From the NCBI RefSeq assembly GCF_004099695.1, contig NZ_SCHL01000021.1, positions 1 to 59,249 on the forward strand: a DNA stretch of 59,249 nucleotides, written 5' to 3'. The DNA comes from Methanosarcina sp. MSH10X1 (GTDB taxonomy: Archaea > Halobacteriota > Methanosarcinia > Methanosarcinales > Methanosarcinaceae). The notes beneath the pieces were generated by a model, which was not told the origin of the DNA, ran no database searches, and was given only the letters and a program-made list of their open reading frames with translations. Below, piece after piece: positions 32,145 to 34,164 of the stretch. Both the position numbers and the translations under genes were made by a program. The stretch's first letter is position 1. Each line of letters starts with the position of its first letter.

Positions 32145-33416
32145 TCAAGATTTATTTACATAAAGCGCCGCAGCTAACATGCTTAACACTGCGAACACCG
32201 ACCCAGACTCTGGAATAGTCCTGCGCTTCGGTTCACCCCCGGCTGTTTTGCCGATTTTTTCAGATTCTCTATATATTTCCTGCTCTGGCTCTGAGTTTTC
32301 CTCTATATTTTTTATTACTTTCGGCAAAATTTCCTCATCCAAAGGAAATTCTACATAGCTGAATATAACAGGCACATCGGCAACTCCAATCTCTTTTCCC
32401 GCCAGGTCAAATATCTCGTAAATATCATCAAGAGTTGAATTGTTAACTTCCGAGCCTTCCAGAATTCCTACTCCTACACGGTTCTCAATGCTCAAGCCAT
32501 AGCTTACAACCGGCCCCTTGGGATAAGTGTAAGGCTCCATATATTTTCTTGCAAGGGTGCAGATTCTACGGAGCTGGTCATACCATTCTCGCCTCTGGTC
32601 TTCAATATAGAATTCGGGCTCTCTTCCGTAAGTTGTAATTAATGTATTTTTCTTTTGAGCTTCAAGGCTTTTAAGCCCCAGTTTTGCAAATACGCGAACT
32701 GTTTCATCTTCATCGTTCAAAGCGGTCGTAAGCGGCTCAACTGCGCGTTCGTCTCCAATTCTACCGAGAGCTTCAGCCGCACGCACCCGGACACTGGAAT
32801 CTTCATTACCAAGGGCTATGATTAAAGGCTCTATTGCTGGCTCACCCATCAGACCAAGGTTATAGCCCAGGTCTGCTCGAAGTTCCGGTTTTTCTTTGAG
32901 TGCCTGAATCATGGGCTGAACTGCTCTTTCATCTTTTATTCCTGCAAGGACGGCAATGACCTTCATCTGGAGGAACACATTTTCGTTCTCGTCCTGCAAG
33001 ATCTTAATAAGAGGCTCTACGGCAGGCTCTCCTATTTCTACAAGAGCGTTAGTTGCAGCACTTTCAACTTCCCACTCCTGATCCGTCAGCAATTTAATGA
33101 GTGGCTTTACAGCTTTTTCATCCTTTATTTTGCCGAGAGTAATAGCTGCATTTTCACGGATCTCCGGGTCTCTGGAATCCAGTGACAGGATTAAAGGTTC
33201 TACTGCAGGCTCTCCAGCTTCAACCAGGGTTTTTACGGAATCCGCTTTAAGATTCACATCCTAAGAGTTAAAATTCTGAATTAAAGTCTCGACTTCCTGT
33301 TTATCTAAGGCAGCGCTGGCTACTTGAACACTGGAAAATGTAAGCAACTGGATAACCATCAGCGTGAACAATATAAAAACGATTATTAAAGGAATTCCCA
33401 ACCTTCTAACCTTCAT
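32145..33416 (-). CDS. Exported HEAT-repeat protein with an in-frame TAG (possible pyrrolysine codon)
   Basis: The frame from the ATG at 33416 encodes a signal peptide (residues 1-36, MVIQLLTFSSVQVASAA at its end) and 15 further residues, then a TAG at 33261-33263 (codon 52), and continues in the same frame for 372 codons to a TGA at 32145. After the TAG come about six HEAT/PBS-lyase-like repeats (AVEPLI...LGKI pattern, up to about residue 245), a globular C-terminal domain and a hydrophobic tail (PESGSVFAVLSMLAAALY, basic/polar end) resembling a surface sorting signal. Methanosarcina can read UAG as pyrrolysine, so the full reading may be one protein. Otherwise it is a nonsense mutation, or translation begins at a GTG at 33257 without a signal peptide. 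Confidence 0.75.
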
Positions 33417-33542
33417 TTGATCACCTGATCCATATTTATTCAGAGCGCAAAAACTTTAAACAGGAATACTGGTTGGATGATCATAAATTAAAGACTGAAA
33501 TAAAAACTAAATTAAAAAGTAAATTAAAAATTTTAATAATTT

Positions 33543-34085
33543 TTATTCTGTTACTGTGACCATATTAAGAGATACCAGTCTCTTTACTTCTTCTTTCGGG
33601 AGAAGATACCCATTGTAACCGTCAAGTTTTGGGTCTGCCGGATTTACCCCGTATTTTTCAATATAGTCTGCCTCTGCTTCCTTTATGATTCCTGACATTT
33701 CCTGTTCGCTCATTACCACATCATAATCCACACCTTCTTTCAAGCCTTCTGAAGGTTCGCCTGTTTCAGTGACCAGCACTCTTGTGGTACTGTGCAAAAC
33801 TGTGCCTTCCAGGTAATTTGGGAGTTCTCCCCTGGCAAATTTGAGGTCATTCTCTGTAATATTGTGTCTTCGATACAATTCCTGCAGTTCTTCATCCGTA
33901 TAACTTAGATTACCAGATGTATCAGTTGTCGCTTCAGCTTTAACCTGAGTCTCTTCATCGGTGTGATTATTATTATCGAAATAAATCACTTTAAACGCTA
34001 CCTGGTTATGATATTCATAATAAATGCCCAGGATTACAGCAATACATACGAGGGCTATGACCATGATTATTTTTCTTTTATTCAT
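33543..34085 (-). CDS. Exported or membrane-anchored protein of unknown function
   Basis: A 180-residue protein with an N-terminal membrane anchor (residues 2-22, NKRKIIMVIALVCIAVILGI). An acidic outer region follows, with two helical parts, EELQELYRRHNITENDLKFA and EQEMSGIIKEAEADYIEKYG. I do not recognise the family. The ATG at 34085 is chosen; a TTG five codons upstream is in frame but less likely. A 38-base direct repeat copies its translation start 71 bases upstream. Confidence 0.65.
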   Translation of the reverse strand: MNKRKIIMVIALVCIAVILGIYYEYHNQVAFKVIYFDNNNHTDEETQVKAEATTDTSGNLSYTDEELQELYRRHNITENDLKFARGELPNYLEGTVLHSTTRVLVTETGEPSEGLKEGVDYDVVMSEQEMSGIIKEAEADYIEKYGVNPADPKLDGYNGYLLPKEEVKRLVSLNMVTVTE

Positions 34086-34164
34086 GTTGTGGGACCTCAA
34101 CAGACTGTTAGCGATACAACCTGATTTATGACCATGATTATTTTTCTTTTATTCATGTTGTGGG
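34056..34164. repeat. 38-bp direct repeat duplicating the start of the downstream gene
   Basis: Copies at 34056-34093 and 34127-34164 are identical over 38 bases. Each includes an ATG and the first codons MNKRKIIMVI on the minus strand. The outer copy opens a 19-codon frame (34097-34156) that ends at a TGA 12 bases before the real ATG. Confidence 0.85.

Follow-up and report, generated by a model that had tools for sequence, protein, structure and literature searches.

Within the 59,249-nt stretch of DNA analysed here (the window), the minus strand carries a gene for an exported HEAT-repeat protein which is interrupted by one in-frame amber codon. The gene starts at an ATG (33416-33414), and 2 nt before this lies a Shine-Dalgarno sequence, AGGTGATC (33419..33426), an 8-nt exact match to GGAGGTGATC. 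The first 51 codons (33264..33416; MKVRRLGIPLIIVFILFTLMVIQLLTFSSVQVASA/ALDKQEVETLIQNFNS) align with the N-termini of the orthologues, and encode a hydrophobic signal peptide, whose last residues are ASA, and then the first 15-16 mature residues. Codon 52 of 423 is TAG (33261..33263), and as a stop it cuts off most of the protein. The frame then runs on for 371 codons (32148..33260), encoding the HEAT repeats, a C-terminal domain and a hydrophobic C-terminal tail, to a terminal TGA (32145..32147). When re-derived, the coordinates of the frame leading from the ATG into the TAG matched those of the first-pass annotation. The open frame which it described from there to the TGA is also present, its count of 372 codons including the TGA itself.

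Over the 423 codons this copy contains no second stop or frameshift, and both the Shine-Dalgarno sequence and the signal peptide are retained. The tryptic peptide over the TAG comprises residues 40-57 and reads QEVETLIQNFNS-X-DVNLK, where X is the TAG position.

An internal ORF of 370 codons can be read from a GTG (33255..33257, minus strand) which begins 3 nt past the TAG, and it is conceivable that a ribosome terminating at the TAG reinitiates there, leaving the upstream part dead and producing a cytoplasmic HEAT protein. The GTG, however, has no Shine-Dalgarno sequence (no anti-SD match), and as a start it is not conserved, the position being GTA, GTG or TTA in other species, where it falls inside a signal-peptide protein. 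The product would also have no hydrophobic N-terminus and would lose export; the first-pass annotation had likewise seen no signal peptide in the protein without its upstream part. We regard such a restart as very unlikely.

In Pfam searches the read-through protein matches HEAT-repeat families only (HEAT_2, PF13646, E=2e-34; HEAT_PBS, PF03130, E=4e-23) and has no similarity to methylamine methyltransferases; for HEAT-repeat membership it scores 118.1 bits against a curated cut-off of 27.7. The best HEAT_2 stretch, residues 43-125, spans the TAG. An AlphaFold2 model that used the alignment of the orthologues gives confident helical repeats (pLDDT mostly above 80) and a poorly modelled C-terminal third, and in this model residues 51-53 are predicted to lie in the loop joining helices 39-50 and 54-67. 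A fold search confirmed only HEAT-like repeats, the best matches being designed alphaRep proteins. The C-terminal tail found no match among the curated sorting-signal models of NCBIfam. Compared with the copy in another Methanosarcina species (G006), this tail (32148-32370, minus strand; codons 350-423) has a dS of about 1.4 and a dN of about 0.59, and the remainder of the gene a dS of about 0.4 and a dN of about 0.07-0.10. The alignment suggests either recombination or a poorly constrained tail that is hard to align.

Codon 52 and the gene in other Methanosarcina species

Orthologues were sought in 31 Methanosarcina species genomes, some of them incomplete, including the source genome (G000). 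The gene is present in 13 of the 31, that is, in 12 of the 30 other species, and no close orthologue was found in the remaining 18, which include some of the incomplete genomes. At the aligned codon eight orthologues have CAG (Gln; G003, G004, G005, G006, G007, G015, G028 and G030) and four have TCG (Ser; G001, G002, G014 and G016). None of the 12 has TAG, and on these codons we reject a conserved pyrrolysine site. The first-pass annotation had proposed a possible new pyrrolysine protein, and had named in advance, as a result that would refute it, a sense codon at this position in the orthologues of most strains; with a sense codon in 12 of 12, that reading is not supported as a conserved or selected feature. 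It had left the choice between pyrrolysine read-through and a nonsense mutation, and here the nonsense option is supported and a conserved or selected pyrrolysine site is not.

Nine other species encode the HEAT protein in one unbroken frame, and the continuity of the frame across the TAG is therefore not due to chance. The closest copy, that of G006, reads AAT TCT CAG GAT where the source genome reads AAC TCT TAG GAT, and one C-to-T transition accounts for the difference at codon 52. TCG is also one change away from TAG, but since the closest copy has CAG, the immediate ancestor of the TAG was probably CAG.

A base-calling or assembly error from CAG to TAG would have the same appearance. CAG is the expected codon, and the source species is represented by a single assembly, a draft of 3.56 Mb in 55 contigs. 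This assembly is nevertheless 99.95% complete with 0.17% contamination, and the HEAT gene contains no other lesion. At such quality an assembly seldom contains single-base errors, and we consider an error here highly improbable.

Damage to the gene is seen in several relatives. The frame of the G006 copy is shifted near codon 68, where a 1-nt insertion gives GGAGGAGCC in place of GGAGAGCC, and is broken again near codon 264 by a 65-bp insertion, which holds a TGA and a duplication of 32 bp. An internal TAA lies at codon 143 of the G003 copy, and the G002 copy is split into two frames. In G029, TruD and PyrG are found at the syntenic locus with no HEAT gene between them. The median amino-acid identity of G029 and G006 is 95%, and that of either with the source genome is 89-90%. 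Given the broken copies, the absence from G029 and the 18 of 31 genomes without a close orthologue, loss or inactivation is common in this family, and the lesions include a frameshift and a TAA, which are beyond rescue by pyrrolysine. Judged by this comparison of genomes, the HEAT gene is dispensable.

Upstream, the gene is adjoined by a 185-aa ORF of unknown function (33543..34100, minus strand). In G029 and in G008 the TruD-PyrG interval lacks this ORF as well as the HEAT gene, and G006 has both. The pair may come and go together.

Decoding of UAG and signals of read-through

The source genome can in principle decode UAG as pyrrolysine, because it has an intact pylTSBCD set together with TAG-containing mtmB and mttB. 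PylS scores above its curated cut-off, and pylT (L059:5252-5323, anticodon cta) lies directly upstream of pylS. Downstream of pylS are open frames for pylB, pylC and pylD, these three being named from their order and sequence. Both mtmB and mttB contain the expected single in-frame TAG.

The mtbB gene (dimethylamine methyltransferase) is missing from the assembly in its full length. Contigs C26, C28 and C32 (bases 2-73) open with the identical last 24 codons of mtbB, and these ends are probably collapsed repeats at contig ends.

As a gene stop TAG is used sparingly, as the first-pass annotation had stated: it ends one of the 37 ORF-called genes in the window, and 17 of 693 genes (about 2.5%) in 955 kb of the source genome. 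This rarity, and the continuation of the frame beyond the TAG, would speak for a functional, selected site which needs the chemistry of pyrrolysine, as in MtmB, MtbB and MttB. These enzymes resemble the HEAT gene in having an in-frame TAG after which the frame continues, in Methanosarcina that encode pyl, but their TAG position is conserved within each family and is catalytic, whereas that of the HEAT gene is shared by no orthologue. The residue concerned is Gln or Ser in a predicted inter-helix loop, the protein is unlike the methyltransferases, and a search for a PYLIS-like structure gave none: a stretch of 106 nt that surrounds and follows the TAG folds no better than shuffled sequences (z = -0.57). 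As PYLIS is not required (PMC2933860; PMC9499178), the absence of such a structure is weak evidence either way. Taken with the orthologues, a selected pyrrolysine site is extremely improbable.

Constraint on the frame was estimated with a codon model over codons 53-350 in 13 sequences, which gave an overall dN/dS of 0.26. On the terminal branch of the source genome dN/dS is 0.28 against a background of 0.26 (2dlnL = 0.06), and no decay is visible. The G006 copy is certainly broken, and its branch shows no relaxation either (dN/dS 0.17, 2dlnL 1.46). Since a broken copy is equally unrelaxed, the preserved frame in the source genome shows only that the amber is young. We considered whether constraint past the TAG could prove read-through and rejected this, as a test which yields an equally low branch dN/dS for the broken copy is powerless; the preserved frame speaks neither for read-through nor against it.

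Parts of G000, G006 and G029 were also scanned for lone in-gene stops, that is, single stops with conserved coding flanks. Two TAG, one TAA and no TGA were found, where mutational opportunity gives an expected TAG share of 0.415. In these parts of three genomes there is no clear TAG excess, the counts being too small.

Interpretation of the amber codon

Taken together, the comparisons make it probable that the TAG is a recent, lineage-specific nonsense mutation from CAG in an exported HEAT gene with which the lineage can dispense, and that any pyrrolysine read-through is incidental and low-level. The broken G006 copy, the absence from the G029 locus, the TAA in G003, the split frame in G002 and the CAG of G006 all speak for this reading. 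So do the sense codons of all 12 orthologues, the presence of the gene in only 13 of 31 genomes, the minor use of TAG as a stop, the ordinary folding after the TAG and the lack of a clear TAG excess among lone in-gene stops. Against it stands a copy that is otherwise lesion-free, with dN/dS at background, although the broken G006 copy tests alike.

On this nonsense reading, a CAG-to-TAG transition would have placed the amber at codon 52, and most ribosomes setting out from the ATG would stop there, releasing a signal-peptide stub of 51 residues. Because the cell makes Pyl-tRNA(CUA), a minority of ribosomes would probably place pyrrolysine there, in the loop that joins the first two helices of the repeats, and complete the protein. 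This read-through would be incidental rather than selected, the product presumably having no role of its own. Incidental insertion is plausible because pylTSBCD is intact, mtmB and mttB contain TAG, and an ordinary UAG introduced in M. acetivorans showed 20-30% apparent suppression, with full-length product (PMC2933860). The HEAT gene resembles an ordinary single-nonsense pseudogene: it is dispensable and patchily distributed, it has a single premature stop, and related copies carry frameshifts or TAA. It differs in that its stop is the one codon which the host can partly suppress, and the lesion may be leaky.

A precedent for such incidental insertion is Thg1, the tRNA-His guanylyltransferase, which has an amber in M. 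acetivorans only; this is translated as pyrrolysine and is dispensable for activity (PMC2933860). A prediction study of 2013 described the same neutral route to pyrrolysine for other genes (PMC3639795). The HEAT gene likewise has an amber in one lineage at a codon which is sense in its orthologues, in a genome encoding pylTSBCD, and like Thg1 it lies outside methylamine metabolism. The amber might by analogy be read well enough to keep the exported HEAT protein functional, a variable position in a loop being able to tolerate pyrrolysine. The decoding set and tRNA-Pyl are intact, the modelled site appears to be a helix-helix loop which already varies between Gln and Ser, the frame past the TAG is unbroken and its dN/dS is that of the background, and both the suppression and the Thg1 amber are on record for M. 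acetivorans. Pyrrolysine has, however, been physically seen in Thg1, whereas the HEAT amber is known from the sequence, and the Thg1 gene is kept in 30 of the 31 Methanosarcina genomes searched. The nearest relatives have the HEAT gene either in broken form or not at all, so that a need to retain its function is barely indicated. The dN/dS test lacks power, and lone in-gene stops show no clear TAG excess over TAA. We thus find a neutral pyrrolysine protein of the Thg1 kind rather unlikely here. By analogy, the HEAT amber would fit the neutral-acquisition kind, with less reason than in Thg1 to think that the product is kept.

If the amber is a plain nonsense mutation, the matter is one of annotation only: the entry should give a gene interrupted by an amber, and neither a pyrrolysine protein nor a leaderless HEAT protein of its own. 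A read-through amber would be a further example bearing on how well pyl-encoding archaea tolerate ambers at ordinary sense positions. Useful suppression by Pyl-tRNA, giving an exported HEAT protein with pyrrolysine in a loop as part of a diffuse, neutral Methanosarcina pyrrolysine proteome, is in our judgement doubtful. Equally doubtful, and tied to read-through of the HEAT gene, is the extension of such a proteome to the Thg1 amber and to those in the transglutaminase-like proteins of G000 (L187) and G001 and a radical-SAM-like protein of G006.

L187 (G000:C33:84900-86100) encodes a transglutaminase-like protein, about 204 aa long, with a lone TAG at G000:C33:85401-85403. This position is Lys or Arg in all 19 other species examined, and the flanks are 83-93% identical. 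The orthologue in G001 (L203) has its TAG at a different codon, 12, which is Gln elsewhere, and from the alignment these two appear to be independent sporadic ambers in one family. In G006, a protein with a CNYCY motif (G006:C1:2182150-2183091), radical-SAM-like by reading of this motif, has a lone TAG near 2182429 in place of Trp. It is over 90% identical to its G029 counterpart around the TAG, and the frame is open in 20 other species.
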